From a virus, in IMG/VR virus record IMGVR_UViG_3300047445_000050, positions 1 to 23,353 of that record: a stretch of DNA of 23,353 nucleotides; one strand, written 5' to 3'. The translations under genes were made by a program, and so were the position numbers. Position 1 is the stretch's first letter, and each line of letters starts with the position of its first letter. Of this stretch, positions 4,294-22,239 are shown piece by piece. Under the pieces are notes generated by a model. It ran no database searches. It was not told the origin of the DNA and saw only the letters and a list, made by a program, of their open reading frames with translations.

Positions 4294-7185
4294 TTACTTT
4301 TGATCTTTTGGACTAGCCCCAATCACGGGGCCTGACACTGCAATCCGTTTGGCGGTTTGCGCGATCCTAATTGCTGCTCCGGTATCAGGCTTGACCGGAA
4401 CTTTCTGCAACAGTGCGCGGGCCAACTCTGGATTAAGCATGGCCTCCTTTACGAGATCGTCAACATTTGCGAGCCCCGCATCGCGTAGCGCCGAGGCAAC
4501 GCGTTTGCCGAGCCAGCCAGCTATTCCACCACCAGCTCCAGCGATTGCATGTCCGGCCGCTGCCGCAGCAGCCTCACCAGCGATTCTGTTGAGAATTGTC
4601 CCATCTTCAGCGGCGCGATGTGCTGTATCCTGTGCCGTGTTCGATCCGCCAGGAAGCTTCGTCGCGTTGACACTCCGGTTAGCTCGTTGAAGATCTTGCG
4701 AGACAGCGCGAAGAACGCCGATTTCCTCCGGAGTGAATACCTTTGCCAACACATCGGCCTTAGTACGCATGAACGTCTGGAAGGCATCAGCCTTTATCTG
4801 GCTTGCGCCTGTCGTTGCCGCTTCCGTGTTTGATAAAAACTGCGATTGAATGTGGTCAACAACTGCGCGACGGAGACCGGCTTCAGCCGCTTTGTTACCT
4901 CTGGCTGCCGTCGCCAATTGCTGCATTCGCGCGGCTCCGTCCCGGCTATTCAAAATGGTGCCGACCTGCCGAACAACGTCACCACTTTCCGTTCCCATAA
5001 CGCTGGCGACTGCGGATCTATCGAAGTTTGCAAGCTGCTCCTTCCGCGTCGCTGCGGCTTGAGCAACGGCCTCTTCTGCTCGTCCGGGATTGGCAAGACG
5101 GCTACGGACGGCCGGCGGCAATTCAGCTAGCGCAGCGTCATGTTGCTTGGCCCACGCGAGAGCCTTTGCCGTGTCAATCGAACCATCCGGCCTCATTGCT
5201 GCGCGGCGCAGGGAGAAGGCTGCATAGTCCGCAATGACCGGGATGGCTTGGTCATGTCCAACAGAATTGATGTAGTGACGAACATCCTCACCGCCATTAG
5301 CGCCAGGATGAAAGACCTTCGACGGAACTAGAGAGCTCGGAGTTCGATAGTCTCCGGCTCGAGCGCCCGGTTTAAGAACATTGCCGGTTGCACCTTCGTC
5401 AAAGGTGGTCGCTCTGGCTTGCGTGGCAGTGGACGCATCTCTTAGTCTTTGGGCGGCCTCTGCATCGAGAGGAACGCTCTGTACTCCTTGATCGCCCGGA
5501 GCCAATCCAGGCGCCCCTCCCGCTTCGCCGTTTGCTCGAACATTGCCAGAAACGGAAGACGGTCTGCCGGGGCTAGCGGCTCCAGCTCCCGCTCTATTGT
5601 TTGCTTGTTCGCTGTTTCGTCGCGCAAGGAACTCATCCCTCTGCGCCGCTAGGCGCCCAGCCATCGTGTCTTCGGCGGACATTTCGCCTCGACGAACGGC
5701 ATTTTGCTCTACCCTGGCCTGATTTTCAACGGCCCGATCAATAGTCCGCTCAAGAGCCTGCCGCAATTGGACAAGTCGCGCATAGGTAGGGGTGCGACCG
5801 GAATTGCGCAACTCCTCTGACATGGCTGCCGAGATGCGCCCTCGAAGGTCTCTCACCTCCCGAAATGGGGTGCGCTCATCATAGGTACCGGCAACATCAA
5901 AAATCTCCCTTTCTTCGCCGCTCATAGGGCGAGCTGAGCGGGATAGCTGACCTTCGATATTTCGAGCCGAATTGGCGATCGGGGTGGCCGGCATGACAAG
6001 ATTACCATGGGGGTCTACGGCATCCCAAAGCTGGCGTTCGGCCTGCTTGGCGGCATCTCTGGCTTCTTGGGCGGGCTCGCGCATAGCGGCCCCGTATCCC
6101 TCTGCCGTTCCATTGCCTCCCATAGCCGCCGTGGCTTGATTCCGCTGCCGGGTAGCATCGTTGACCGCCGTCTCCGTGACCCTATCCAGCGAGTCCCGCA
6201 AGCCCCGGAAATGGGCAGATACGTCGGCTGGCGATCCGGCCGCTTGCGTGCCCTGGATGGCGCTGCGGCGAGCCGCATTCTGTTCGGCCGCCCTTTGCAG
6301 AAAATCGTCAGGATTATTGGTCCTAACCTGCCGTTCAAGTTGGCCGAGACCCATATCGCCAGTTTGCTGAAAGGTCGTCGGTTTTGACCCCGGAACCAAT
6401 TCATGGGGACCGTTTTCGAGGCTATCTCGCACTGCATGAACATCGCTAGCTGCGCTGGCTATGCGCTGACCCGCAAGCGATTCCTGCCCTGCCTTCGTGA
6501 AGGGCCTCGCAAAATCCTTGACGGCATTGACGGCATATTTACCGCCCTCATAAACAACGCGGGCGCCCAGCGGCACGAGACCACCCACAGCCCCGCCCAC
6601 GATGCGGGCGCCAGTCTTGTAGCCGTCCGGTGCTAGTTCTCCAGCCGTTTCAGCCGTCCCGCCCTGAATGGCACCCGTGATCGCCTGCGCCGCTGGGTGA
6701 CTACCGAATAACCCCTCCATGACCGAGAATACTTTGGGGGCAGCACTCCCGATCAAAGACTTGGCGCCACCCACCAAGCCGCCACCGGCCACCATCCCGC
6801 CAGCGCCCTCACCGGCTCCGCGCACAATGCGCTCAACGGGTTGGTTGGCCTCAACGGTGTCGGCGGTATCAATCCCAAGCGCGTCCATGCCGTGCCTGAT
6901 GCTTTCGGATCCGCCGATGGGCTGAACATTGTCAGCAAGTACTTTGCGACCGGCAAGATAGTTGACGCCGCCGGCCGCCTGGTTGACGAATCCCCCGACA
7001 AGATCGGCCGGATAACCCAGAGTTTTGGCTATGCCCTCGTTTAGGCCGGCAGTCGTATTGTGACCGACAGAACTGATAGTGGCAGCTTTGGAAACCTGAT
7101 CGAACTGATCAAACGGATTCGCGTCCGTTGACCCGCTCTTAGACTGCGGCCCATCAAATTGGTCGAAGGGATTGGCTTGCGCCAT
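4294..7185 (-). CDS. Large internal virion / DNA-ejection protein (gp16 position)
   Basis: A 963 aa protein, the largest in the window. Its ATG overlaps the stop of the 452 aa gene as TGATG. The N-terminus carries NPFDQFD twice (residues 5-11 and 23-29), a motif I recognise from the N-termini of phage internal virion proteins. Next come Gly/Ala-rich, possibly membrane-active segments (about 120-150), a long helical, Ala/Arg/Gln/Glu-rich middle, a low-complexity linker (around 520-560), and near the C-terminus another Ala/Gly stretch (GEAAAAAAGHAIAGAGGG) and DDLVKEAMLNPELARALLQK. I see no transglycosylase or lysozyme motif. The order 249-452-963 matches P22 gp7 (229), gp20 (471) and gp16 (609), the proteins that leave the capsid to form the DNA channel. 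The assignment rests on order, size and composition rather than on sequence identity. An intrinsic terminator follows. Confidence 0.7.
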   Translation of the reverse strand: MAQANPFDQFDGPQSKSGSTDANPFDQFDQVSKAATISSVGHNTTAGLNEGIAKTLGYPADLVGGFVNQAAGGVNYLAGRKVLADNVQPIGGSESIRHGMDALGIDTADTVEANQPVERIVRGAGEGAGGMVAGGGLVGGAKSLIGSAAPKVFSVMEGLFGSHPAAQAITGAIQGGTAETAGELAPDGYKTGARIVGGAVGGLVPLGARVVYEGGKYAVNAVKDFARPFTKAGQESLAGQRIASAASDVHAVRDSLENGPHELVPGSKPTTFQQTGDMGLGQLERQVRTNNPDDFLQRAAEQNAARRSAIQGTQAAGSPADVSAHFRGLRDSLDRVTETAVNDATRQRNQATAAMGGNGTAEGYGAAMREPAQEARDAAKQAERQLWDAVDPHGNLVMPATPIANSARNIEGQLSRSARPMSGEEREIFDVAGTYDERTPFREVRDLRGRISAAMSEELRNSGRTPTYARLVQLRQALERTIDRAVENQARVEQNAVRRGEMSAEDTMAGRLAAQRDEFLARRNSEQANNRAGAGAASPGRPSSVSGNVRANGEAGGAPGLAPGDQGVQSVPLDAEAAQRLRDASTATQARATTFDEGATGNVLKPGARAGDYRTPSSLVPSKVFHPGANGGEDVRHYINSVGHDQAIPVIADYAAFSLRRAAMRPDGSIDTAKALAWAKQHDAALAELPPAVRSRLANPGRAEEAVAQAAATRKEQLANFDRSAVASVMGTESGDVVRQVGTILNSRDGAARMQQLATAARGNKAAEAGLRRAVVDHIQSQFLSNTEAATTGASQIKADAFQTFMRTKADVLAKVFTPEEIGVLRAVSQDLQRANRSVNATKLPGGSNTAQDTAHRAAEDGTILNRIAGEAAAAAAGHAIAGAGGGIAGWLGKRVASALRDAGLANVDDLVKEAMLNPELARALLQKVPVKPDTGAAIRIAQTAKRIAVSGPVIGASPKDQK

Positions 7186-8543
7186 CAGCGAGCCTGATCG
7201 TGATGCAGGATGAATGCAGACATGCCCTGCCCGTACTTCTCGTCAAACTTACTGGCGAGCTTGGGATCGCCCTTCATCATATTGATTGCAGCCGGCGGGA
7301 TGGCATTGGCAACCGCTGTCTTGGAATAGAGATCGGGCGGGAATTGTTTATTGAACTCAACGTCAGCACCGAAGGTGTTGCCGCGATGAGACTTCGCGTA
7401 ATCAGTCGCGAAAGTATAATAGTCCTTCTCGCGCTGGATTGCCTGCCTAATGCCGGACGAAACCAGCTTAAAGCCCATCGGCGTGCTTTCAGCGCCAGGC
7501 ACGGCGCTCACCGACGACTGTACAATGGTTGCAGCCTCGCGAGAGCCAAGGGTCCGCGCTAGATCAAAACCCGCTCGCGTGGTCTCTTTGTTCAAATCTT
7601 CCCAGTTAGCGATCTTATTCGGGTCAATAGCCGACGGGAGGCCCACAGTCTGCAAGAGAGAGTTGACCGACTTAGCCGCACTTAATTTTGCGTTTGCGCC
7701 CGCGCCAGTCGAGGACCAGCCGGCAGAATTAAGAACATCCGCGCTGTGATCCATCATATCGAGGCGCATGCTAAGACCCTGCGCCGTCTGCGCGACCTCG
7801 CCTGCTTTCTTGTATTGCTCGACAGACTGCAATTGCAGGGCGTTTGATGCCGGCGTGACCGAAGATGAAATCGTACCATCCGGGCCTTTAACAATTCCGG
7901 GGGTGAACATGTCACCCTTGAAACGATCATTAAACGATGGTGCCGCTGGTTGCTTGGGAACGCTTGGCAACGAGCCATCAGAATTAGGTACGATTGTATC
8001 CGTGAATTGCTTCACGGGTTGACCTGCCGTTCCAGTGGCCACAGCGGTACGATTGCTATAAGGAACATTCGGCTGAACCGGCTCCGGCACGTAACGTCCA
8101 GCCTCGCGGGTTGTATTGGCTGCCGGAACGCCGCTCTGCTCGATATTGGTAGACGACGACTGTCCCAACCGCTGCGCGTTCAGCCCATACTGCTTCACCT
8201 GCTCAGGAGGCGCCGACATCAGGTGGCCCTCCGTCAACGGGTCGATGGGAACACCGGCGCGCTTGGCAAGACTGATGGCCTGCTGACGGGCCTGCACGCT
8301 CTGATCATTCGCCAGAATGTTGCCGATCGGCCCCATGGCTTTAGTCATGGTGTCTGTCATCGTGGCGCGCTGGCCTGAGGTTAGTCCGCCATTCTCGCCG
8401 TATTCGCGCTCGCGCTCGCCGTAGGACTGCTGAAGGATATCGCCCTTGATCGTCGATTCACGAAGCGCTGCGGCCTTAGCCAGCGCCCCGCCAACGTCCA
8501 GAGGCTTAACGCTTGCAGCCAGCGAGTTGTCGATTTCAGGCAT
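7185..8543 (-). CDS. Internal virion / DNA-ejection protein (gp20 position)
   Basis: A 452 aa soluble-looking protein. It starts with an ATG overlapping the previous stop as TAATG, and its own stop overlaps the next start as TGATG. The N-terminal 110 residues are helical and charged (REREYGENGG, then TMTDTMTKAMGPIGNILAND). The middle (about 130-235) is Pro/Ser/Thr/Asn-rich and probably extended. The C-terminal half is helical again, with LQLQSVEQYKKAGEVAQ and a long amphipathic region to the end. No enzyme motif is visible. Its size and its place between a small Gly/Ala-rich protein and a very large one match P22 gp20. The role is inferred: packaged inside the capsid and expelled ahead of the genome. 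Confidence 0.65.
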   Translation of the reverse strand: MPEIDNSLAASVKPLDVGGALAKAAALRESTIKGDILQQSYGEREREYGENGGLTSGQRATMTDTMTKAMGPIGNILANDQSVQARQQAISLAKRAGVPIDPLTEGHLMSAPPEQVKQYGLNAQRLGQSSSTNIEQSGVPAANTTREAGRYVPEPVQPNVPYSNRTAVATGTAGQPVKQFTDTIVPNSDGSLPSVPKQPAAPSFNDRFKGDMFTPGIVKGPDGTISSSVTPASNALQLQSVEQYKKAGEVAQTAQGLSMRLDMMDHSADVLNSAGWSSTGAGANAKLSAAKSVNSLLQTVGLPSAIDPNKIANWEDLNKETTRAGFDLARTLGSREAATIVQSSVSAVPGAESTPMGFKLVSSGIRQAIQREKDYYTFATDYAKSHRGNTFGADVEFNKQFPPDLYSKTAVANAIPPAAINMMKGDPKLASKFDEKYGQGMSAFILHHDQAR

Positions 8544-9723: not shown

Positions 9724-10160
9724 CGCAGCACAAACCCGCCAGCACCGCCGTCAAGCGAGTCCACATAGGTGAAATCGTAGAGAAGCCCAGACGTGATGTC
9801 CCCCGTCGTCGCCTGCGCCGCCCCGTTCGATTTGAATACCTTGATTGTTGCAAGATTGCCCTGCGGCGTTGCAACCAAAGCCGTCACCGTTCCGGTTGTT
9901 GTGTTTGCGGCGACGGCGCGGAAGGTATCAAAATCATAATAGCCTTGAACCAGCGGCGCTGTATCCAGCATGGTCAGAGTGATGACATTCGTGCCAGATG
10001 CAATGCACGGCACCGTTCGATTGGTGCCGTTGATAAAACCGAACATGCCTTGCAGCGTCTGCCAACCATTGTTGGTCAACAGGCCCGTACTATCAACCAA
10101 AGGGTTGCGCTGCTGTGGCTGTAACAGTGACGGGACTTGTGCAGAAGCCGGGATCGTCAC
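9720..10160 (-). CDS. 146 aa neck/tail structural protein, paralogue of the 235 aa protein
   Basis: It starts with GTG at 10160 (GTGA overlap with the gp10-like stop) and ends overlapping the cupin-like start by 4 bases. The N-terminus (RNPLVDSTGLLTNNGWQTLQ) resembles a short motif common at the start of phage neck and fibre proteins, roughly PxVDxxGxxTxxW. From residue 50 on, VPCIASGTNVITLT, then a beta-rich stretch, then DITSGLLYDFTYVD and GAGGFVLR match the middle of the 235 aa product (IPCTAAGTNAIVLT ... GEIQSGWYYTAAY ... GAGGFQL). The two thus share a domain of about 95 residues. It occupies the P22 gp26 (tail needle) position but has no long coiled coil, so it is not an obvious needle. 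Likely virion component; exact role unknown. Confidence 0.65.
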   Translation of the reverse strand: MTIPASAQVPSLLQPQQRNPLVDSTGLLTNNGWQTLQGMFGFINGTNRTVPCIASGTNVITLTMLDTAPLVQGYYDFDTFRAVAANTTTGTVTALVATPQGNLATIKVFKSNGAAQATTGDITSGLLYDFTYVDSLDGGAGGFVLR

Positions 10161-11569
10161 GGCTCACCCACGGTAATATCAGCATTCGCGCTAATGATTA
10201 CCCGCTTGACAGGATCGCTGATCATGACCCGGATAATCCACTGTCTGGCCTGCCCCATCCGAAACCACCGAGCACGCTGGAGATAGGCGCCGATCTTGCC
10301 GAGTGAATTCCAGAGTTGCGGCGTTTTGAAAGTCCTCCCGCCGTCCGTGGAGTAGTCCATCATGATCTGCGGATCGCTACCCTGCCCCGAGTTCAGACCA
10401 ACGCCGCTTTCAATGTCGAGCTCAAACGTAGAAATATAGATGCGCTTCCGGTCCTTGTGGATCGGCGGCGATGTCATCAAGGCGCGCATCGTATTGCCGA
10501 ACTCTGTGAACGTGTTCGCGTCCAGATATCCGATCTTGCCGGAATAGGCATCGCCAATGAGCACCTTGCCGAAAGCAGTCAAACAGCAATTGCCGCGCCA
10601 GCGTCCAAACGAGTTATTGTTCTGATCCCAGGATTCACGCTCATGCCAAAGACCTGTTGCGATATCCAGAACCCAACTCGCATTTGCGGTCGGGAACACC
10701 AGATTGACGAACTTGTGGCCCTCGAACGTGTACGAGAACGTATAGGCGTCGGCAACCGTACTATAAGATTGGAAAGCCTGCTCAACGGCATGCGTGCTAA
10801 CCCGCATGAGGCTAATGCCATTAATGCGGTAGAAAATCAGATCATCGCCGAGGAAAAAGACAGAATTGTCTTCCTTGATGGGCGTTAAGAGAGCAGCGCT
10901 TCCGCGCTCGATGGTACTGGCCCCCGTCCGTTGGAACGGGAAGTTGATGGCACCAGCATCATACCATCCCTCAATCGTCTTCTGACCGAAGATTAGAAGG
11001 TTTTCTTGCTGGTTAACAATCGACAGGACATAATCGCTCGACACTTCCGCCGAGGCAAAATCGGCCCCGTTGTAGACCGTGCCATCAAGCGAACTTGAGA
11101 TGAAGAACTTATTCGTATTCGCCCAATCAAACACGAAATAGTTGTCAAAGAACGTGACGGTATTCGCAGCGTGAAAGTTGGCGTCCGTAATGACCTGGAA
11201 GCCAGATGTCGCAGACCAGATGAATCCATTAACGCCGTTAACGATGCAAACCTGCGTGCCATTGTTCGCCATCGGCGTGAAGGCGGTCCCGCCGATTGAT
11301 CCGCCAATGTCCGTAACCACTCCTGTAGAGGTCAGGCTATAAAGTCTCTGGCCTGACACCACATAGGCCACGCCGTTCATGAACGTGAAGCCGCGAACTG
11401 GTCCAGTACCGCACGATGCGAATTGCACCAAACCAGGCGAACCAAACACGGCTACCTGAGTTTTTGCGTCCGGCGGTTCTTTCTCGGCATAGCAGTTGAC
11501 CACGCGCTGGGCACTAACCGGAAGAGATCGCGAGTTGTAGGAATTCGTCGCGAACTGAACGACGGTCAT
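10157..11569 (-). CDS. gp10-like packaged-DNA stabilisation protein
   Basis: A 470 aa protein, close to the 472 residues of P22 gp10. It begins at an ATG overlapping the previous stop by 4 bases. The opening SRSLPVSAQRVVNCYAEKE followed by GSPGLVQF is the typical start of this family. The rest is a run of beta repeats with alternating strands (VRGFTFMNGVAYVVSGQRLYSL, then similar blades), as expected for a beta-propeller-like fold. In P22, gp10 forms a hexameric ring below gp4 that closes the portal channel after packaging and carries the spikes. The gp4-like gene lies immediately upstream, as in P22. Confidence in the family is good, based on length, opening motif and neighbours. Confidence 0.8.
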   Translation of the reverse strand: MTVVQFATNSYNSRSLPVSAQRVVNCYAEKEPPDAKTQVAVFGSPGLVQFASCGTGPVRGFTFMNGVAYVVSGQRLYSLTSTGVVTDIGGSIGGTAFTPMANNGTQVCIVNGVNGFIWSATSGFQVITDANFHAANTVTFFDNYFVFDWANTNKFFISSSLDGTVYNGADFASAEVSSDYVLSIVNQQENLLIFGQKTIEGWYDAGAINFPFQRTGASTIERGSAALLTPIKEDNSVFFLGDDLIFYRINGISLMRVSTHAVEQAFQSYSTVADAYTFSYTFEGHKFVNLVFPTANASWVLDIATGLWHERESWDQNNNSFGRWRGNCCLTAFGKVLIGDAYSGKIGYLDANTFTEFGNTMRALMTSPPIHKDRKRIYISTFELDIESGVGLNSGQGSDPQIMMDYSTDGGRTFKTPQLWNSLGKIGAYLQRARWFRMGQARQWIIRVMISDPVKRVIISANADITVGEP

Positions 11570-13914: not shown

Positions 13915-14844
13915 TTAAGCCTGGGTGACGCCGTAGACGCTGGAAGCACCATTGACGGTGTTCAGCGCCGCAGGCGGGATGGTGATGAAAACCTGAATGG
14001 TCTTCGTGCCGTCCGCTGCCGACTGAAGCGCATAGGTGCCGCGAACGTCGCCCGTGGTCGAGGTCGCCGGAACCGTCGTAACAGCCGCCGTAAAGCCCGT
14101 ATTCGCAGTGATGCTCGCGTTGTTGTAGTTGATCGCGAGACGGCCAAACCGGAGGGACTGGAGCGGCAAACCAATCACGTCCTGGGTACCGATGGTCAAG
14201 GTGCCAGCGACCGAGCCGGTGTGCGTAACGCTGGAGATGTACTTCCAGGCCTTGGCACCGTTCGCCGTACCGGCGTTCGCGCCAGTGATAGTCTCCGTCA
14301 TCGGGAAACCGTAGATATCCCAGCCGGAGATGGTGAAGGTGATGCCGCTGTCGTTGCCGCCTGACACAAGACGGACAGCGCGGGAAACCAGCGTCGAGGG
14401 ATCATAGGCGCTGATTTCAAACTGGCCGCTATTTGCGCCAGAGGCTCGGCCGTAGCCCACAAAGCCGGTCGGGCCGTCAAGGGCCAGCGTACCAGCGGGG
14501 ATGGTCACGCCAGAGGCAGGCATGTACTGCGCAGCCGAGGTAACGGTCACGCCAGCGCCGGTCGTGGAGACCAGCGTAATCGCGCCGGCCGCAGGAGACT
14601 GAGAGGCGGCGATGTTAACCGCCGAAAACGTAGCCGGCGTCGCGTCAAGCACCAGAATATCACTGCCGACAAAGCCGACGCAGCCAGCCTTGGTGTTGTT
14701 GTAGCCAGCGCGGCTGTCGAGGTAGCCAGCGCCACCGTAGAGCATCGACGGGGCGAGATAGGGGTTCTCAGAGCCGTTCGCGCCAGTTCCAAGCGGGGGA
14801 CGCTGCCCGTAAATAACGAGCGGGCCTTTCATTGCGGTAGTCAT
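13915..14844 (-). CDS. 309 aa beta-rich structural protein, probably abundant
   Basis: ATG 14844 follows AAGGAG by six bases, a strong ribosome-binding site. The protein has few charged residues and is rich in Gly, Ala, Ser and Thr: NPYLAPSMLYGGAGYLDSRA near the start, many alternating short strands, then WDIYGFPMTETITGA, VAGTLTIGTQDVIGLP and LAINYNNASITANTGF, and an IPPAALNTVNGASSVYGV end. No family is recognised with certainty. It stands as its own unit between two intrinsic terminators just after the capsid gene, which is the pattern for a highly expressed head-decoration or tail-tube-like protein. Podovirus neighbours make decoration or a head-surface role the more likely, but this is inference. 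Confidence 0.7.
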   Translation of the reverse strand: MTTAMKGPLVIYGQRPPLGTGANGSENPYLAPSMLYGGAGYLDSRAGYNNTKAGCVGFVGSDILVLDATPATFSAVNIAASQSPAAGAITLVSTTGAGVTVTSAAQYMPASGVTIPAGTLALDGPTGFVGYGRASGANSGQFEISAYDPSTLVSRAVRLVSGGNDSGITFTISGWDIYGFPMTETITGANAGTANGAKAWKYISSVTHTGSVAGTLTIGTQDVIGLPLQSLRFGRLAINYNNASITANTGFTAAVTTVPATSTTGDVRGTYALQSAADGTKTIQVFITIPPAALNTVNGASSVYGVTQA

Positions 14845-14950: not shown

Positions 14951-15859
14951 TTAGACGCCGGGGGTACCGAACACGCCGCGCCAATCGCTCCAGCCCATCG
15001 AATAACGCTCGTAGCAAGCCGCTTTCGCGTTCTTGGTGTCGAAGTCGTTGTCCTGATCGAACATGATCGCGTCGCGCTCGTACATCTTCAGGCCAGCCGG
15101 GGCATTGGTCCGGATGAACCACGCCGTTGCCGACGTGAAGTAGTGGTTCATCTTGATGCCCTTCGGGAACACGTTCGTCGCCTTCAACACGTTGATAGCG
15201 TTGTTGGACGAGTCATTCTGAAGGACCGACTTCAGAATACGGTTCGCTTCGTAGAAAAGCTGAACCGGAACGTGCAGGGACTGCGGCATCAGGGAGATGC
15301 GAAGGCCCTTGCTGTTCTGCGCCTGCATGACCTGGATCGTCAGGTCTTCGATCGCAGCTTCCGACAGATCGGCAGCAGTCGTAAGAACATTCGACTGGTT
15401 GCCGGCAGTGGTCGGATGCGCCGAGTTGATCATGCTCACGCCGTCGCCGCCCGTGAAGGACGAGGAAAACGCACGGTTGAACACGTTTGCGCCGACGTTC
15501 TCCTTGGTCTGACGCATCGAGAAAGCGAGCTGCTTCGCGCGCCGCTTCGAAACAACCTCATAAAGGTCGTCACGAAGTTCCTCGAAGGTCACGACGTAAC
15601 CCAGCGCATACGCAACGTGCGTATAGCGGGTGACGGCGCCCTGCGACTCGGTGTCGTAGTTGATCGAGGCGCCCTGCGGCTTGACGGGAGCCAGACCGAA
15701 GCCCGTGATTTCCACGTCCTCTTCGTAGGCCTTGTCCGAAGTCTCCTTGTCGAAGAGATCGACGTACTCTTCCGGGTGCTCCGAATAAGAACGGCCCCAC
15801 CATTCCTTGATGCCGGGCCAAAGTGCTTTGGGATGCGTGCCAGTGGTAATCGTAGCCAT
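14951..15859 (-). CDS. Major capsid protein
   Basis: A 302 aa coat protein with a very strong start (AGGAGG nine bases before ATG 15859). Visible landmarks of this capsid family are the N-terminal WWGRSYSEHPEEYVDLFDKE, YVVTFEELRDDLYEVVSKR (about 89-107), NRAFSSSFTGGDGVSMINSAHPT broken by turns (about 128-150), and the C-terminal MYERDAIMFDQDNDFDTKNA and ERYSMGWSDWRGVFG. The last block, FxxDNDFDTxNAKxxxxERYSxGWxDxRGVxG, is very typical of phage coat proteins of the HK97 fold. The gene follows the scaffold and an accessory head protein and is closed by an intrinsic terminator, as expected for the most abundant virion product. No protease gene or obvious prohead cleavage site is seen nearby, which fits P22-type assembly on a separate scaffold. 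Confidence 0.9.
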   Translation of the reverse strand: MATITTGTHPKALWPGIKEWWGRSYSEHPEEYVDLFDKETSDKAYEEDVEITGFGLAPVKPQGASINYDTESQGAVTRYTHVAYALGYVVTFEELRDDLYEVVSKRRAKQLAFSMRQTKENVGANVFNRAFSSSFTGGDGVSMINSAHPTTAGNQSNVLTTAADLSEAAIEDLTIQVMQAQNSKGLRISLMPQSLHVPVQLFYEANRILKSVLQNDSSNNAINVLKATNVFPKGIKMNHYFTSATAWFIRTNAPAGLKMYERDAIMFDQDNDFDTKNAKAACYERYSMGWSDWRGVFGTPGV

Positions 15860-15874
15860 GTGTTACGCCTCCTC

Positions 15875-16495
15875 TTAGACGCCGGCAATCAGGTTTGCGA
15901 AGCGCGAGTTATTGAGCTTCACAAGCCATTTTGCATTCATGTTGGTGTTCGCAGCAGTGCCGATAGCGTTATCAGCCTGTTGCAGCGGGCGGATGATTTT
16001 CACATCCAGGGTGTTGGTGGTGGCAACGGTCGAAGCCGCCATCTGCCAGCCCGAATAGCCGGTCACGGTCGAGCCGGCACCAGCAACCAGGTTGGCGTTC
16101 TTGCCAGCCCAAAGGTTCGGAGCGGTCGCCTGCGCAGAAGCGTCGTCCTGAAGCTCGAACAGGAGGTTCGGATCGTCCGCGATCGCAAGATACTGAGCCG
16201 TCGAGGCCGGGTGATACACAGGCAGATCACGGGTGACCGTGTTCATGTTGCCCATGTCGCCGCCGTTGATGATGCCGACCACAACGCCAAGGTACGGAGA
16301 GCCGACCGTGGCGAGCTTGACGGCGGGAATGCCGTTGGCATCGTTCGAGGACGAGATGATATCGACGGGGTCGCCGACAAAGAGCGCCGTCGCGTAGGCC
16401 GCCGGCACGAAGTAGGTATTGAAGGAGCCGTTGTATTTCTGGCCCCAAACAGTAGCGTAGGGGATGAGCCCACGCGCAACGTTTGCGTTTGCCAT
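15875..16495 (-). CDS. 206 aa probable accessory head (decoration/stabilising) protein
   Basis: ATG 16495 is preceded by AAGGATTTCCTT; the ribosome-binding AAGG can pair with the CCTT next to the ATG, a small hairpin that could temper translation. The protein is hydrophobic-beta in style: GLIPYATVWGQKYNGSFNTY, FVGDPVDIISSSNDANGIPA, GSPYLGVVVGIINGGD, LPVYHPASTAQYLAIADDPN, LLFELQDD, and a C-terminal WLVKLNNSRFANLIAG. This layout, a short beta protein coded just upstream of the capsid gene and ending 15 bases before it, is common for head accessory proteins in podoviruses. No named family is certain. Its stop lies just before the capsid ribosome-binding site, so the two are likely made together. 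Confidence 0.65.
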   Translation of the reverse strand: MANANVARGLIPYATVWGQKYNGSFNTYFVPAAYATALFVGDPVDIISSSNDANGIPAVKLATVGSPYLGVVVGIINGGDMGNMNTVTRDLPVYHPASTAQYLAIADDPNLLFELQDDASAQATAPNLWAGKNANLVAGAGSTVTGYSGWQMAASTVATTNTLDVKIIRPLQQADNAIGTAANTNMNAKWLVKLNNSRFANLIAGV

Positions 16496-16574: not shown

Positions 16575-17030
16575 TTAGCCTTTGGACGAGATCTTGATGC
16601 CCTGCTTGGGCACGTACTGACCTTCGCCTTCGGGGCCGTCAGCAACACCACGGCGCATCGAGTCTTCCTTGGCGTCGATGATCCGCTGTTCCTGGGCCAT
16701 ATCTTGGTTGTACCATTCCTCGGGGATTTCCATCAGATAGGCCGTCAGTGCACCGCCACCCTCGGCAGTACCGACCACCCGGCTCACTGGCTTGGCATCC
16801 CGGTCCTTGACGTGCTCGTAACCTGCCTCAAGAGCACGGCCAACGCGGCCTGGGATGTCATTGAACCAATGACGGTGGAAACCTTCCCTTTGGGGATAAT
16901 CGAGCTTGAGGCTCATTGAGCCAAAGGGCTTGCGTGCTGGACGCTGCGGGAGATCCGTAGCCGGAGCTGCCGGAGCGTTCATGTCATTCCTCGGACGGCC
17001 GGGACCGCGACGTTCTGTGACTTCGTTCAT
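16575..17030 (-). CDS. 151 aa protein with an AT-hook-like N-terminus
   Basis: ATG 17030 follows GAGG by five bases and lies five bases past the scaffold stop; an in-frame GTG at 17045 would overlap the scaffold gene. The N-terminus MNEVTERRGPGRPRND contains GPGRPR, which matches the Arg-Gly-Arg-Pro core of AT-hooks that bind the minor groove of DNA. A Pro/Ala linker follows, then a folded part: SLKLDYPQREGFHRHWFNDI, GRVGRALEAGYEHVKDRDA, SRVVGTAEGGGALTAYLMEI and EEWYNQDMAQEQRIIDAKED. I have seen this kind of protein beside scaffold and capsid genes of other phages, always hypothetical. A link between genome DNA and the growing head is conceivable. A 79-base spacer to the next gene holds only a weak 5 bp hairpin and that gene's ribosome-binding site. 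Confidence 0.65.
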   Translation of the reverse strand: MNEVTERRGPGRPRNDMNAPAAPATDLPQRPARKPFGSMSLKLDYPQREGFHRHWFNDIPGRVGRALEAGYEHVKDRDAKPVSRVVGTAEGGGALTAYLMEIPEEWYNQDMAQEQRIIDAKEDSMRRGVADGPEGEGQYVPKQGIKISSKG

Positions 17031-17035
17031 CTGCC

Positions 17036-17866
17036 TCAATCCCACTCGTAATCTTTGACGTATTTCTCTTTGGTGTAGCCCGGAATGTTCTTGACGAATT
17101 TGTCGCAGGCTTTCTTGGCCTCTGCGGGCAAATCGTCATAGGTCCGGCCCGCCGGTTTCTTCGGGCTTGCAACCCCGCCAGGAGCCGCTACAGCAGCCGC
17201 GCCATCGCGCTTGGGGTTGACACCGAACTTCTCCGGGAAGCGATCCACGGTGCGCTGCTTGGTCTCTGAAAGCAGTTCTGAGCGGCTTTTGCCGGGGAAT
17301 TGCTTTTCGAGGTCGCCATATACTTCCGTGGCGTACCCACGGAGAGCCATCGACTTGTTGAACCAGTCGTTCTGATCAATCCAAGACTGGATCTCGGGAT
17401 CGACAGTGGGCTTGTCGGGCTCGCCAACTGGCTTTGGCTCTCGCTTGGGAGCGGGTTCGCCGCCCTGAAGCTCGGAGATTTCAGCCCTGATCTGGCGGGC
17501 CTGCGTTACGTCTGCGGTCTCGATCGCGGCATCAAGCCTGCGCTCAAGATCGCGGAGCGCCTTCTTGTGCTCGCGCTCGGCCGACTTGCGGACCAGATCC
17601 TCGACACCAGCGGCGGCTTCCTTGGTCTCGCGCAGTTCCTTTTCGAATCGGCTGACCGTATCGTGCAGCTTCTTGTTATCGCGCTGCAAAATGGGAAGGA
17701 TCGTCTCGCCGCGCTGAAGGAATTCCTCAGCGGAGCGGTGCTTGTCGGGATCGCCCTTGAATTCTTCTTTCGAAACCCAGCCAAGGCGGCGGGCTTTCGC
17801 CTCGGCCTCGTTGGCTTCCGGCAATGCGCCGTCAGTCCCAGCTTCCGCCAGGTTAGCTTCTGTCAT
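17036..17866 (-). CDS. Scaffolding protein
   Basis: The start is ATG 17866, eight bases after AGGAAA; the open frame extends 86 codons further up, but that part runs antiparallel in composition through the co-chaperonin gene and is not protein-like. The 276 aa product is highly charged. Residues about 26-48 (ARRLGWVSKEEFKGDP...) match the opening of phage scaffold proteins, followed by AEEFLQRGETILPIL, a long coiled coil (about 60-140), a Pro/Lys-rich linker, and a C-terminal part with DNDWFNK-like QNDWFNKSMALRGYATEVY, an Ala/Gly/Pro stretch and a basic-aromatic end (KNIPGYTKEKYVKDYEWD). Scaffolds use such an end to bind coat protein. Its position between portal and coat agrees. Confidence 0.85.
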   Translation of the reverse strand: MTEANLAEAGTDGALPEANEAEAKARRLGWVSKEEFKGDPDKHRSAEEFLQRGETILPILQRDNKKLHDTVSRFEKELRETKEAAAGVEDLVRKSAEREHKKALRDLERRLDAAIETADVTQARQIRAEISELQGGEPAPKREPKPVGEPDKPTVDPEIQSWIDQNDWFNKSMALRGYATEVYGDLEKQFPGKSRSELLSETKQRTVDRFPEKFGVNPKRDGAAAVAAPGGVASPKKPAGRTYDDLPAEAKKACDKFVKNIPGYTKEKYVKDYEWD

Positions 17867-17879
17867 GACTGTTTCCTGG

Positions 17880-18272
17880 TTAGACTTTCCTGATGCCACC
17901 GATGGCCTTATCATCAACCAGACGATACTTCGCGCCATCGTCGCCGACGATTTCCTTGCCGGCATACTTTTCGAAATGGACCCGATCACCAGCCTTCGGC
18001 TTGTAACCACCAAACGGACGGGTTCGGTCTGAATTCCACGCGAAAGCGTCGTCGCCGATTTCAACAATGACGCCGGACGAGGCCGAGAGCTGCATACGCT
18101 CCACAACGTCGTCAGGAAGGGCAATGTTGCCCTGCGATTTGGTCATTGCGATATCTGGAAGGATCAGGACGCGATCACCAACGGGGGTGCAGCCTGATTT
18201 GTTTTCGCCGGTCCACGGAGCGGCAATGTACTCAACGCGACTAACCGACAGAACCTTGGGGTTCAGCGCCAT
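17880..18272 (-). CDS. GroES-like (Cpn10) co-chaperonin
   Basis: A 130 aa protein from ATG 18272, which follows GAGGAAAG; a TTG four codons earlier would destroy that spacing. The Cpn10 pattern runs from about residue 30 to 127: VGDRVLILPD (31-40), the mobile-loop region MTKSQGNIALPDD (43-55) with IAL in place of the GroEL-binding IVL of GroES, SSGVIVEIGDD (65-75), KAGDRVHFEKYAGKEI (93-108) and YRLVDDKAIGGI (116-127). It is longer than bacterial GroES (about 97 aa) through a 30-residue N-terminal extension and a longer roof region (AFAWNSDRTRPFGGYKP). Phage co-chaperonins such as T4 gp31 replace GroES to fold the coat protein. The gene sits between portal and scaffold, a strong hint of the same job. 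It overlaps the 86 aa gene by 32 bases. Confidence 0.85.
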   Translation of the reverse strand: MALNPKVLSVSRVEYIAAPWTGENKSGCTPVGDRVLILPDIAMTKSQGNIALPDDVVERMQLSASSGVIVEIGDDAFAWNSDRTRPFGGYKPKAGDRVHFEKYAGKEIVGDDGAKYRLVDDKAIGGIRKV

Positions 18273-18501
18273 CACTTTCCTCAATTTTATAGAATGACTC
18301 GATTGCTTCGAATTGAAGCTCTGCTATCTCGCCAAGCTCAATGACTTGGCCGCGAACTGCCGGCGGTACTTCCGCGCCGTCAACCCACATTTCTGAAACG
18401 CGATTGATCAGGAACTCGCGCTTGTCCTTCAGGAACGCTAGAAAGACCTTACTGACCGGATCGTGCTTCCAAAGATTGAACTGCTCTTTGGTCACGCTCA
18501 C
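18241..18501 (-). CDS. 86 aa protein between portal and co-chaperonin
   Basis: Starts at GTG 18501, which overlaps the portal stop as GTGA, and overlaps the co-chaperonin gene by 32 bases at its end. The sequence is helical and charged: TKEQFNLWKHDPVSKVFLAF, LKDKREFLINRVSEMWVDGA, then GQVIELGEIAELQFEAIESF. The DPVSKVFLAFL stretch and overall layout recall small proteins encoded just after the portal gene in other podoviruses, with no proven function. It probably acts in head assembly. Confidence 0.7.
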   Translation of the reverse strand: MSVTKEQFNLWKHDPVSKVFLAFLKDKREFLINRVSEMWVDGAEVPPAVRGQVIELGEIAELQFEAIESFYKIEESDGAEPQGSVG

Positions 18502-20732
18502 GGCGCTGGCGATCCATGATCCGCGGCGAACTTGCTATCCGGGTCCATCCTCAGATTCCCGTCAGGATCGCCCGCAATGCCGCCGTTCATCTGGTCTGTA
18601 TCCGAGATATCAGGCTGAATATTATTGGGCTGGCCCGGCACAATCGGGTGCGCCAGCATGGGGGACTTCGGCGGCGTTCCTGCCGGCTTGCTCGAACCGT
18701 CCGCGCCCTTGGTCGGCGCCATCGCAGCGTCAACCTCGATCTCATGAGCCTTCAGCACCTTGTCGAGCCATGACAGATGCTGGGCACCAACCGCCGCATC
18801 AGCATCGGCCAGCGACTTGATCGCGCTCGCATAGGCCGCAACAGCCTGGGCGTCCTTGAGTTTTGACGAAGACTGCGCCTCATGCCCCTTGATTTCCAAC
18901 TCCATGCCCTTGGAAGCAAGCTCGGGGTTGGGCGGAATCTGCGTAACCAGCAACTCTTCCGGATTATCGATCTCGGCAGCGTCAAACGCGCGCTCAAGGA
19001 TCTTCAACGGCTGCACAAACGGGGTTTGCAGGAAGCCGAGCAGGAACTGAGTCCTCGCCATCTTCTGCATATCCGACACCATCGACGGGTCGGAATAGGG
19101 CTGGACGCCAGAGCCGGTCTGATAATCCTGCTTCAGGACCGATTGCCACTCGCCGCCGGCCTCGAACTGCATTTCCTGCTGACCGTAAACACGGTTCAGC
19201 CGGTAAAGCTTGTTCAGTTCGCTCTTGAGCGCACGGTGAACCCGCTTGTAGATCGCCGTGAAGACCTTCAGGCCCTGCTCGATGAGAGCAAGCGTGGTCG
19301 TCGCCGGCACGTTGGACGCCTTCTGGTCGCCCGTTAGAACGTCCTTGACGGCTGCGATCTCCTTGCCAGCCTCAACCAGGAAGCCCAGCAGCTCGAACAA
19401 GACCGGAGACGGCCCCTTGAAGTCCATCGGCACAAGGTTTTCACGCAGCGTGCCGCCGGAGACGTTGACCGTCTTGTATTCGCCCATCTGGAAGCGAATA
19501 GCGCCTGCGTTCATCGACAATCCCTTGCCAATGAAGCCCCCGCCAGCGTTCTGGAGCGTCGCCGCGTCCAGCATCTGGTTCAGGACGGTGTTGATGCCTT
19601 CGTTGATTGGCCTAAGGAGCTGGCCGAAACCCACGGAGTAGATTCCACCGTCAGGATTGGGGATGAAATCGTACTTGGTGTAATAGTGAACCGGGTCAAT
19701 CTTGGCGATCTTGTGGGTTCGACTATTGAAATGGATTCCATCCGCATCGTATCGGGCCACGATACGCGCCACTGTCTGGCTGGATTTGTGGACGGTAACA
19801 ATATAGGGCTCCGGATAGCCATCCTCGTCCAAATCCCAATAGCGGTGCTGCTCTAGAAACTCGTGCGGCTTATCCCGGTCGCCCTGCGCACCCTCAGCCT
19901 CGCCATACGGCGTCTTGGGCGCCTTGAACGTCCCGGCCCGCTGCATCTCCTCGATCTCACGAGGATAATACTCGATTTCTTCCGTCCCGCGCGCTGCAAC
20001 TTCCAGTGATTTCGCGTTGTAGTTCACCACGAACTTCATCGGCGAGACCATCGCCGACACGTTGCGCCCCTTTGCAGGATCGAAATAGCTCTTGCGGAAC
20101 ACACAGCCGACAATCGGCAGCAAGTGCAGAAGCTGATCGGTCTCAGGCTCCCATTCCGGCTGCTCATCCAAGAGCTGCCAAGACATATGGTCGCCGATCT
20201 GATCGGCCTTGATGCGCTTGGCACCCGGAGGCACCTGCCATACCGGCTGCGGGCCCTGTGGGCCGTTCTGCATCACCGGAGTGCCATCAGGGCCAATCTG
20301 CGGCGTGCCCTTGTCCTGGCCCACCACAACGCCCTTGACGATCTGTCTGCCGTTGACGATGGCAGGATAAGCGCGGGCCGCAAACTGCGTCGCGGCCGTC
20401 GTCACCAAGGGATAGATGATGTTCGCCGCCTTGGGCCATGGGAAGGATTTCTCCTTCGCGACCTGCATGGCGAGGTCCATGGCTTCCTGGGTCTTGGTCT
20501 TCCAGTCTGCCCGGCTGGTGTCGTCGATCTTGTATTCCTCGACAACCCGCGCGCCAATCGTGGTCAGCAGGGTATCATCAAGGTCGTCCGCGATATTTAC
20601 CGCGTCAATCCACTTCTTGAGCTTGCCAATGTGCTCCTGATCCGGTCCGGACGCCTGAGTCTGGGCAATGCCTTCCGGGTTCTGCGCAGACATTCCGGTC
20701 GGCATTACGGGAGCGGCGGCAAGGTCGTTCAT
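18498..20732 (-). CDS. Portal protein (long podovirus type)
   Basis: ATG 20732 overlaps the stop of the 63 aa gene as TGATG; the TTG one codon earlier is ignored. The 744 aa length matches P22-like portals (725 aa). After a Pro/Gly N-terminus, residues about 85-125 contain KEKSFPWPKAANIIYPLVTT and the Ala-rich AATQFAARAYPAIVNG, typical of large portals of the P22 / SU10-like kind. Next come LHLLPIVGCVFRKSYFDP, MKFVVNYNAKSLEVAARGTE, the wing and stem segments (GLSMNAGAIRFQMGEYKTVN, FELLGFLVEAGKEIAAVKDV, LTGDQKASNVPATTTLALIE), then a helical barrel-like part (AIYKRVHRALKSELNKLYRL). The last 100 residues are a helix (DAQAVAAYASAIKSLADA) and a Pro/Asp-rich tail. The dodecameric portal forms the DNA gate and binds terminase, whose gene is close upstream. 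Confidence 0.9.
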   Translation of the reverse strand: MNDLAAAPVMPTGMSAQNPEGIAQTQASGPDQEHIGKLKKWIDAVNIADDLDDTLLTTIGARVVEEYKIDDTSRADWKTKTQEAMDLAMQVAKEKSFPWPKAANIIYPLVTTAATQFAARAYPAIVNGRQIVKGVVVGQDKGTPQIGPDGTPVMQNGPQGPQPVWQVPPGAKRIKADQIGDHMSWQLLDEQPEWEPETDQLLHLLPIVGCVFRKSYFDPAKGRNVSAMVSPMKFVVNYNAKSLEVAARGTEEIEYYPREIEEMQRAGTFKAPKTPYGEAEGAQGDRDKPHEFLEQHRYWDLDEDGYPEPYIVTVHKSSQTVARIVARYDADGIHFNSRTHKIAKIDPVHYYTKYDFIPNPDGGIYSVGFGQLLRPINEGINTVLNQMLDAATLQNAGGGFIGKGLSMNAGAIRFQMGEYKTVNVSGGTLRENLVPMDFKGPSPVLFELLGFLVEAGKEIAAVKDVLTGDQKASNVPATTTLALIEQGLKVFTAIYKRVHRALKSELNKLYRLNRVYGQQEMQFEAGGEWQSVLKQDYQTGSGVQPYSDPSMVSDMQKMARTQFLLGFLQTPFVQPLKILERAFDAAEIDNPEELLVTQIPPNPELASKGMELEIKGHEAQSSSKLKDAQAVAAYASAIKSLADADAAVGAQHLSWLDKVLKAHEIEVDAAMAPTKGADGSSKPAGTPPKSPMLAHPIVPGQPNNIQPDISDTDQMNGGIAGDPDGNLRMDPDSKFAADHGSPAP

Positions 20733-20755
20733 CAATATCCCGTTACGCTCGACCG
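20732..20755 (-). repeat. Imperfect direct repeat, copy 2 (3' end of the 63 aa gene)
   Basis: Encodes the final RSSVTGY and stop of the 63 aa protein and includes the TGATGA that starts the portal gene. Over 28 aligned bases it matches the terminase 3' end at 22 positions by my hand count. Confidence 0.75.
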
Positions 20756-20923
20756 CGCGGCAACATAGCCATTGTCTTCAAATTCCTTCTGCCGCAGCTT
20801 GCGGGCGTATACGATATAACGATCGATCAGCTTGTCGTCGCGGCGCCCCTCTTTGAGGCTCCTCTCGACCTGAGATTCGATGACTTCCATCTCTTCGCGC
20901 AACGTGCTGGCATCGAATTTCAT
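20732..20923 (-). CDS. 63 aa protein between terminase and portal
   Basis: ATG 20923 overlaps the terminase stop as TGATG, and its stop overlaps the portal start in the same way. The first 50 residues are a charged helix (FDASTLREEMEVIESQVERS, then KEGRRDDKLIDRYIVYARKL), probably coiled or helical hairpin. It ends in ARSSVTGY, nearly identical to the SRSSITGY end of the large terminase. Small helical proteins between terminase and portal are common in phages and are usually unassigned; one possibility is a role in docking the terminase to the portal. Confidence 0.75.
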   Translation of the reverse strand: MKFDASTLREEMEVIESQVERSLKEGRRDDKLIDRYIVYARKLRQKEFEDNGYVAARSSVTGY

Positions 20924-20946
20924 CAGTAGCCCGTAATGCTGGAGCG
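20923..20946 (-). repeat. Imperfect direct repeat, copy 1 (3' end of the large terminase gene)
   Basis: Encodes the final RSSITGY and stop of the large terminase; the following bases give TGATGA, the start of the 63 aa gene. The partner copy begins 191 bases downstream on the minus strand. Confidence 0.75.
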
Positions 20947-22239
20947 GCTTTCGTTCGCAAAATCGCTATCGAACAGCCCGTCAATCGTCATCGCCTTGTC
21001 CGAGCCCTCGTAACAAACCGCCATCAGGCCAAATGCATCGCTGGCGTGGCTCGACCAATCATGATCCGGCCCCAAACCAACGTTGCGCGCCTCGTCCTTG
21101 CGCTCATGATAGAAGCCCAAGGCATCCCTGCCCGATTCCGTCTTGGCCTCATCGAACACGCAGCGCGGCAAAATGCGCCTGACAGCCTCAACCCGCATCA
21201 TCGCGGCGCCCGCTCCCTGGTTGGGAACAGTCATCACGCTGAATTCTGCGTCGCTCAGATGGTCGGCGTAGCGCTTGCCGGTGATATCGTTCGTCTTGAT
21301 GCCGTCATGGGGAAGATAGCAGATCGCCTGCCCGTACCCGCGCCGCCTCAGCTCGTTGACGTAATAGGACAAGACCTGCCCCACGCCCTCAATATAGTCC
21401 ACCACGCAAATCTCGCGGTCGATCCACTGCACCAGCCAGATTGCCATGGCGTCGGCCTTGGCGCCCGCGCCACCAAGATCCCAGAACGCCCGGATTGGCA
21501 TCATAGGATCAACAGGAAGGCGCGTGATGCGTTTTTCCAGCCGAGCCTTGGTTAGCAGCGTCGCGAAGTAAGCCCCCTCAAAGGCCTTCGCATACTCGCC
21601 TTCCCAGATGTGGCCGTAACGCTCTGGATACCGCTCCAGATCAAGCTTGCGCTCGTCTTCCAGCACAGACGGGAACCAAGGGTTATCCCGCCAGTTGGCC
21701 TCTACGACAACCGCGCCTTCCGGCGGAGAACCGCGCAGGAACTCGTCAATGGCGTCAACCTTGCGCCTGGGATTCCAAGACGCCCAGATTTCAGAACCTT
21801 CGGCGCGAATAGTAGGCCGCAGCATTGAGAGACTGCGAGCACTAAGCGTCTGCGCCTCTTCGATCCAAGCACGGTTGAAGCCCTCAAGAGACTTGATTGA
21901 TTCCGCCGTATGATCCTGCATGCCCTGAAACAGGATCACGCCACCACCACGCGATTTGATCTGATCAGTCTGGACCTCGAAGTGAGACCCAAGCCCTAAT
22001 GCCTGGATCTTATCCTCAATCAGACGCTTGGCCGAGTCCTTCAGACTCTTTTGATGCTCTCGAATACATACCGAGCGAAGGCCAGGGCAACGATAATGAT
22101 CATCGACCATCAACTCCGCGAAGAAGTGCGACTTGCCAGAGCCTCGACCACCATGCGCGCCCTTGTATCGGGCTGGCTGCAAGAGCGGGACAAAGACCTC
22201 AGCCGTTTGAATGTCAATTGGCACGCGATGCGCTGACAA
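20923..22239 (-). CDS. terL: Terminase large subunit
   Basis: The ATPase-nuclease motor that cuts and pumps DNA through the portal. From TTG 22239 it has 438 aa; a GTG at 22224 (433 aa) is an equal alternative, and neither has a good ribosome-binding site, so it likely depends on coupling with the gene before (overlap 26 or 11 bases). Visible motifs: Walker A GGRGSGKS (30-37), a FNRAWIEEAQ Walker B with catalytic Glu (121-130), ASWNPRRK coupling motif (153-160), and a C-terminal RNase H-like nuclease with acidic sites in FWDLGG (D254), VVDYIEG (D281, E284) and SSHASDAF (D401), plus YLPHDG (309-313). This set fits the PBSX-type large terminase family (Terminase_3). The C-terminus ends in RSSITGY, shared with the next gene. 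Confidence 0.93.
   Translation of the reverse strand: MSAHRVPIDIQTAEVFVPLLQPARYKGAHGGRGSGKSHFFAELMVDDHYRCPGLRSVCIREHQKSLKDSAKRLIEDKIQALGLGSHFEVQTDQIKSRGGGVILFQGMQDHTAESIKSLEGFNRAWIEEAQTLSARSLSMLRPTIRAEGSEIWASWNPRRKVDAIDEFLRGSPPEGAVVVEANWRDNPWFPSVLEDERKLDLERYPERYGHIWEGEYAKAFEGAYFATLLTKARLEKRITRLPVDPMMPIRAFWDLGGAGAKADAMAIWLVQWIDREICVVDYIEGVGQVLSYYVNELRRRGYGQAICYLPHDGIKTNDITGKRYADHLSDAEFSVMTVPNQGAGAAMMRVEAVRRILPRCVFDEAKTESGRDALGFYHERKDEARNVGLGPDHDWSSHASDAFGLMAVCYEGSDKAMTIDGLFDSDFANESRSSITGY

Follow-up and report, generated by a model that had tools for sequence, protein, structure and literature searches.

Why should a phage carry its own GroES? The usual answer, taken from T4, is that the coat protein is too big for the folding cage. 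A groES-like gene in the head module of a viral DNA fragment puts the question differently, namely whether the coat depends on such a lid and, if it does, why the GroES of the host is insufficient. We analysed this gene in the window, by which we mean the whole stretch of 23,353 nucleotides (IMG/VR virus record IMGVR_UViG_3300047445_000050, positions 1 to 23,353, a fragment), and in its relatives among phages, viral contigs and prophages.

The gene encodes a divergent phage Cpn10

A sequence-only reading of this DNA had placed a GroES-like co-chaperonin gene at 17880–18272. These coordinates are exact, and the strand is the minus strand: only there is the interval open, encoding 130 amino acids (14.0 kDa) followed by a stop codon, whereas the plus-strand translation is interrupted by stops. 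A Shine–Dalgarno-like GAGG (18279–18282, minus strand) lies ahead of the ATG at 18272; close relatives keep the ATG, and most of them also have a GAGG-type site.

The Cpn10 profile PF00166 matched the product with 44.7 bits (E = 1.4e-11), above its curated cut-off of 21.1. PHROG 3188, annotated as co-chaperonin GroES, matched at 1.1e-9, and GroES, Cpn20 and Cpn10 chains in the PDB matched by sequence, down to 8.2e-8, so that the Cpn10 signature claimed from the letters is borne out. Among the NCBIfam subfamily and equivalog models for cellular GroES, the highest score was 37.2 bits, where the cut-off is 96, and because the protein falls so far below these cut-offs we regard it as a divergent Cpn10. 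Structure prediction had been proposed as a check, and an AF2 monomer model built from 51 aligned sequences does give the Cpn10 β-barrel. Its confidence is middling (mean pLDDT 78.9, with residues 1–11 below 50). The 33 PDB structures that matched the model at E ≤ 0.001 were Cpn10/GroES-type chains, and GroES/Cpn10 chains came first (Z up to 10.8, 3.0 Å over 94 residues); gp31 of T4 gave Z scores of 8.0 and 8.7, so the fold resembles ordinary GroES at least as well as gp31. Because Pfam, PHROG, PDB and structure-model matches agree, the observation is more than chance. We conclude that the window gene is a real phage GroES/Cpn10.

GroES lies in a head module without GroEL

All features of the module are on the minus strand. 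Their order is the large terminase subunit (20923–22239; PF04466, 88 bits), a small ORF, the portal protein (18498–20735; PHROG 1216, E = 2.9e-17), an ORF of 85 amino acids that overlaps the GroES start (18241–18498; from the ORF list and a PHROGs search), GroES, a probable scaffolding protein of 276 amino acids directly after it (17036–17866; from its position and the family alignment), two ORFs with no function assigned (146 amino acids, 16575–17015; 206 amino acids, 15875–16495) and the major capsid, or coat, protein of 302 amino acids and 33.6 kDa (14951–15859; PF25209, 36.9 bits; PHROG 371). Tail genes follow beyond the coat, among them a P22 gp10-type head closure protein (Hc3; 10157–11569; PHROG 578, E = 3.6e-108) and a DNA-ejection protein. 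The gene had been described as lying between portal and scaffold, five genes from the coat. The scaffold does follow GroES directly, but the 85-residue ORF separates GroES from the portal, and the coat is the fourth gene downstream. Large ORFs of 963, 452 and 309 amino acids at 4294–8543 and 13915–14844 (minus strand) had no NCBIfam matches, and those of 452 and 309 amino acids had no PHROG matches either; the 963- and 452-residue ORFs occupy positions where P22 has late ejection genes.

A search for GroEL across the window gave no matches, in agreement with the sequence-only reading. The window GroES would therefore use the GroEL of the host, and the dependence on host GroEL proposed earlier is supported. 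P22 has the order portal, scaffold and coat without GroES, and its whole genome contained no Cpn10, in line with the sequence-only reading.

The mobile loop is longer throughout the phage family

We aligned the window protein with E. coli GroES and phage relatives and took segment lengths between fixed anchors. The family figures refer to 78 phage sequences, with the E. coli row and the locus L017 set aside. L017 (OR848861 and OR847265) consists of short, unannotated 'Listeria phage' records, of which the one measured has a GroES loop of 24 residues, the cellular length; from this length and the look of the DNA, both records are probably bacterial contamination.

An N-terminal extension is present, as had been claimed, but it comprises 28 rather than 30 residues ahead of the domain (residues 1–28; 18189–18272, minus strand; from the alignment, the model and pN/pS). 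It ends in a YIxAPWxGxNxSG-type motif that is common to the locus L020 and nearly so to L019. The stretch ahead of window residue 30 is 29 residues long in the window protein and ranges from 3 to 61 across the family. Against four relatives, pN/pS over residues 1–28 was 0, 0.15, 0.16 and 0.45, and over the core it was 0.03 to 0.13 against the same four. Judged from these ratios, the extension is real protein under purifying selection. A wrong start codon, and with it an invented extension, is ruled out by the conserved ATG and by the selection on residues 1–28.

The mobile-loop segment (residues 39–66; 18075–18158, minus strand) has 28 residues in the alignment, four more than the 24 of E. coli GroES, a difference that had gone unnoticed. 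Across the phage family it has 27 to 36 residues and is longer than that of E. coli in 78 of 78 sequences. Cellular GroES loops, nine from six carrier genomes plus that of E. coli, measured 24 residues in eight of ten cases by script and in the other two by eye. The loop residues are strongly constrained in close relatives, with pN/pS of 0 to 0.06. Seven loci (L032–L034, L037, L038, L043 and L098) have segments of 32–36 residues with an altered tripeptide region, and one of them has WER at the aligned place.

Within the loop, translation and alignment confirm the IAL tripeptide noted earlier at residues 50–52 (18117–18125, minus strand), which would be the GroEL-binding site. The loop reads TKSQGNIALP, with a hydrophobic tripeptide after a glycine as expected of a Cpn10. 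IAL itself occurs in 6 of the 78 phage sequences; 77 of the 78 have I, V or L at the first position, and 72 have L, I or V at the third. Because the middle residue varies freely, IAL is ordinary in the phage family, and this census rules it out as a special trait.

The enlarged roof also holds: the alignment gives 21 positions between anchors (residues 74–94; 17991–18053, minus strand) against 17 in E. coli GroES, a gain of four. Roof segments run from 9 to 21 positions across the phage family, so a long roof is not a constant trait. The loci L009 and L028 have roofs of just 9 positions, the direction taken by gp31, within the same coat family.

GroES is linked to one coat family

We used the coat gene rather than GroES to retrieve loci, which were eligible if they had at least 3.2 kb upstream of the coat. 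Among viral contigs, for which we took the best 80 of at least 600 loci, all 51 loci with that much sequence had GroES upstream of the coat, next to the scaffold gene; the gap between GroES and the scaffold gene was at most 60 bases in 57 of 61 viral loci from these best 80. Of the 29 viral loci under 3.2 kb, 11 still showed GroES; the remaining 18 did not, and each of these had less than 2 kb upstream. Cellular genomes gave 79 coat-sampled loci, of which 67 were eligible, and 66 of these 67 had GroES in the same place. Twelve short loci were left out (2 with GroES; 10 without, having 1 to 2571 bases upstream). Viral and cellular loci together had GroES in 117 of 118 eligible cases, a count that is descriptive, since it includes related loci (nine from Gluconacetobacter, for example) and since the models were built from the same family. 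The sole miss, L170 on the MAG chromosome CP070693, has its scaffold gene cut at the 5′ end beside runs of N and chromosomal genes. It is therefore probably a broken assembly, a mis-join of phage and bacterial DNA, rather than a true loss of GroES.

The closest coats from cellular genomes, at 74–75% identity, came from Gluconacetobacter among the 79 loci, which suggests an alphaproteobacterial host for the window phage. Each of the nine Gluconacetobacter loci (L104–L111 and L127), all with coats in this range, has its own phage-type GroES; G. diazotrophicus PA1 5 has two of the nine, and the element is a widespread prophage of the genus. Phenylobacterium sp. J367 carries the head module twice, close to one end of a single contig (L122 and L128), and the altered first half of its second GroES frame looks like a frameshift.

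Independent sampling through the tail gene, of the P22 gp10 type, gave 80 loci, many of them in records that are fragments, and 31 had at least 7.5 kb upstream of gp10. Searched as whole records, Cpn10 was present in three of three with the window-type coat, compared with 5 of 28 without it. The window-type coat was absent from P22 and from eight named phages that share the tail gene; three of these nine had Cpn10, sited before terminase or portal. A control with the P22 coat gave no GroES matches in 80 loci, all 91–100% identical to P22 and therefore one lineage rather than 80 controls. The literature searched, with most subscription journals outside its coverage, yielded no report of GroES being obligately paired with this coat family, nor of the near-invariant pairing across phages and prophages.

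The pairing extends to named phages

Six relatives on viral contigs keep the window GroES at 84–100% identity. Twenty phage records had a coat match, and 14 were searched as whole records. All 14 of these named phages with the window-type coat had Cpn10, none of the same 14 had Cpn60/GroEL, and 13 had GroES just ahead of the scaffold gene. The block of GroES, scaffold, two genes and coat recurs in two cave-spring phages, DSL-LC04, CRP-901, CRP-902, HTVC023P and HTVC027P, and equally in 023Pt_psg01, MinM2 (whose record is truncated within the block), QDWS535, Caulobacter RW and MW202545. In MW202675, GroES and scaffold are present and additional small genes precede the coat. MW202601, a distant relative with a coat 28% identical, has its cpn10 about 24 kb from the coat and head genes. 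The adjacency of GroES to the portal is not conserved in the named phages. With relatives this common, the word 'unusual' in the sequence-only reading was too strong. Three phage records (OQ594354, OL906435 and PP438419) have equal lengths (65,014) and equal match scores, are named for different cyanobacterial hosts and are possibly one phage deposited three times.

All six carrier genomes searched keep a high-scoring GroES of their own besides the phage-type ones. When 10 cellular GroES sequences were placed in a tree with 32 from phages or prophages, a long branch split the two groups with UFBoot 100. By this deep split, the phage lids in our sample are a single old lineage, distinct from host GroES, rather than fresh copies of each host's gene.

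A probable lid for the coat protein

We propose that the window protein is a dedicated phage lid under which head proteins, and probably the coat in particular, are folded by host GroEL, and that its gene travels with the coat lineage; we put the probability of this reading at about 0.72. Seven copies of the phage-specific lid would form a dome (the model itself being a monomer), whose mobile loops would bind the ring of host GroEL that carries ATP, sealing the folding chamber with phage late proteins inside. As client we favour the 302-residue coat, because it is the coat lineage that the linkage follows; scaffold or portal would be less likely. The coat may be to this lid what gp23 is to gp31 in T4, and better folding under the phage lid than under host GroES would explain why the gene travels with the coat lineage. 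The protein has the Cpn10 family signature and fold, a longer mobile loop, purifying selection and a near-invariant linkage to one coat family; the window and its complete relatives have no GroEL, and the carrier genomes searched already have a host GroES. Linkage alone cannot name the client, because the genes of a head module are passed on as a unit, and the distant cpn10 of MW202601 counts against a dedicated coat lid.

A host groES was available in carrier genomes, and the gene could in principle be a recently captured, functionless passenger. We give this practically no probability: recent capture is ruled out by the deep tree split (UFBoot 100) and by the NCBIfam scores (37.2 against 96), and a passenger by the purifying selection seen in pN/pS. 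The lid might instead have no special client, with more co-chaperonin late in infection, or displacement of host GroES, letting GroEL fold phage proteins generally. Phage lids adjoin different genes in other phages, being sited there before terminase or portal or, in B8b, before a tape-measure gene, and may therefore serve other clients; according to the accessible part of PMC6318259, gp31 can substitute for GroES for all E. coli clients. We nevertheless consider such a general role unlikely, since it leaves unexplained why one coat lineage keeps GroES in 117 of 118 eligible loci, and why Cpn10 is mostly absent from phages in which a related tail gene is combined with a different coat (present in 5 of 28 and in 3 of 9).

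The sequence-only reading had suggested a cage widened for a large coat by the extension and the enlarged roof, as in gp31. The four added loop residues point in the direction of gp31, whose mobile loop has 22 residues against 16 in GroES, and the four added roof positions and the 28-residue extension would fit as well. However, in the accessible text of PMC6318259, gp31 widens the cage through longer mobile loops and has no roof loops, whereas the window roof is longer. The same source gives gp23 about 56 kDa; the window coat, at 33.6 kDa, is small enough for the ordinary GroEL cage, so the size argument is not needed. The one coat family, moreover, is served by roofs of 9 to 21 positions and by 3 to 61 residues ahead of window residue 30. 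The parallel with gp31 by way of the roof is not supported, and we judge widening improbable. A dome that acts directly in head assembly independently of GroEL, for example as a scaffold partner, would suit the immediate neighbourhood of the scaffold gene (at most 60 bases away in 57 of 61 loci from the best 80 of at least 600). We think this very improbable, since the tripeptide frame is kept (77 and 72 of 78 at its outer positions) and the loop residues are constrained (pN/pS of 0 to 0.06 in close relatives), which as a pattern of conservation favours GroEL binding.

The reading as a dedicated coat lid allows a sharper version, which we advance tentatively and at somewhat less than an even chance. 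An old, coat-specific Cpn10 lid may be bound to one coat lineage across widely different hosts, in phages and prophages alike, offering no added room but a chamber or GroEL cycle beyond the reach of host GroES; its roof and its host-facing loop would vary with the host while the pairing of lid and coat stays. If so, the size argument made for gp31 would be a special case. In the present family, a widespread coat whose size is ordinary almost always comes with its own lid, though the carrier genomes searched have GroES.

Comparison with known systems

Cellular GroES (E. coli, Thermus and mitochondrial Cpn10) shares with the window protein the domain, the barrel and a mobile loop with a hydrophobic tripeptide. 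The window protein differs in its longer loop and roof (four positions each), its N-terminal extension, its separate clade and its scores below the NCBIfam cut-offs. Its best predicted-structure matches, with E down to 2e-10, are GroES proteins of uncultured viruses in BFVD (A0A221S... entries), which probably stem from a 2017 paper on virioplankton chaperonins. Phage-encoded GroES is already a known and widespread kind, and the window gene belongs to it.

HTVC023P-type pelagiphages and the roseophages CRP-901 and CRP-902 have the same Cpn10 lineage and gene order as the window, with homologous scaffold and coat; their GroES is about 26–30% identical to that of the window and their coats 36–39%. 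The window lineage has an N-terminal extension unlike theirs and a longer roof than the pelagiphages. In the accessible parts of the respective papers, GroES counts among the 13 genes that form the core of HTVC023P-type pelagiphages (PMC9599517), is named in the genome figure for the CRP-901 type (PMC10149686) and, in siphovirus B8b, lies before or near the tape-measure gene (PMC4294664). T4 gp31 lacks roof loops, as far as the accessible text of PMC6318259 describes it, and the window protein keeps and lengthens its roof (21 positions against 17 in E. coli), which sets it apart from the gp31 type. Both have the Cpn10 fold and a lengthened mobile loop, and gp31 is a phage lid for host GroEL, as the window protein is predicted to be; given its linkage to the coat gene, the window protein may have a coat-folding role like that of gp31.
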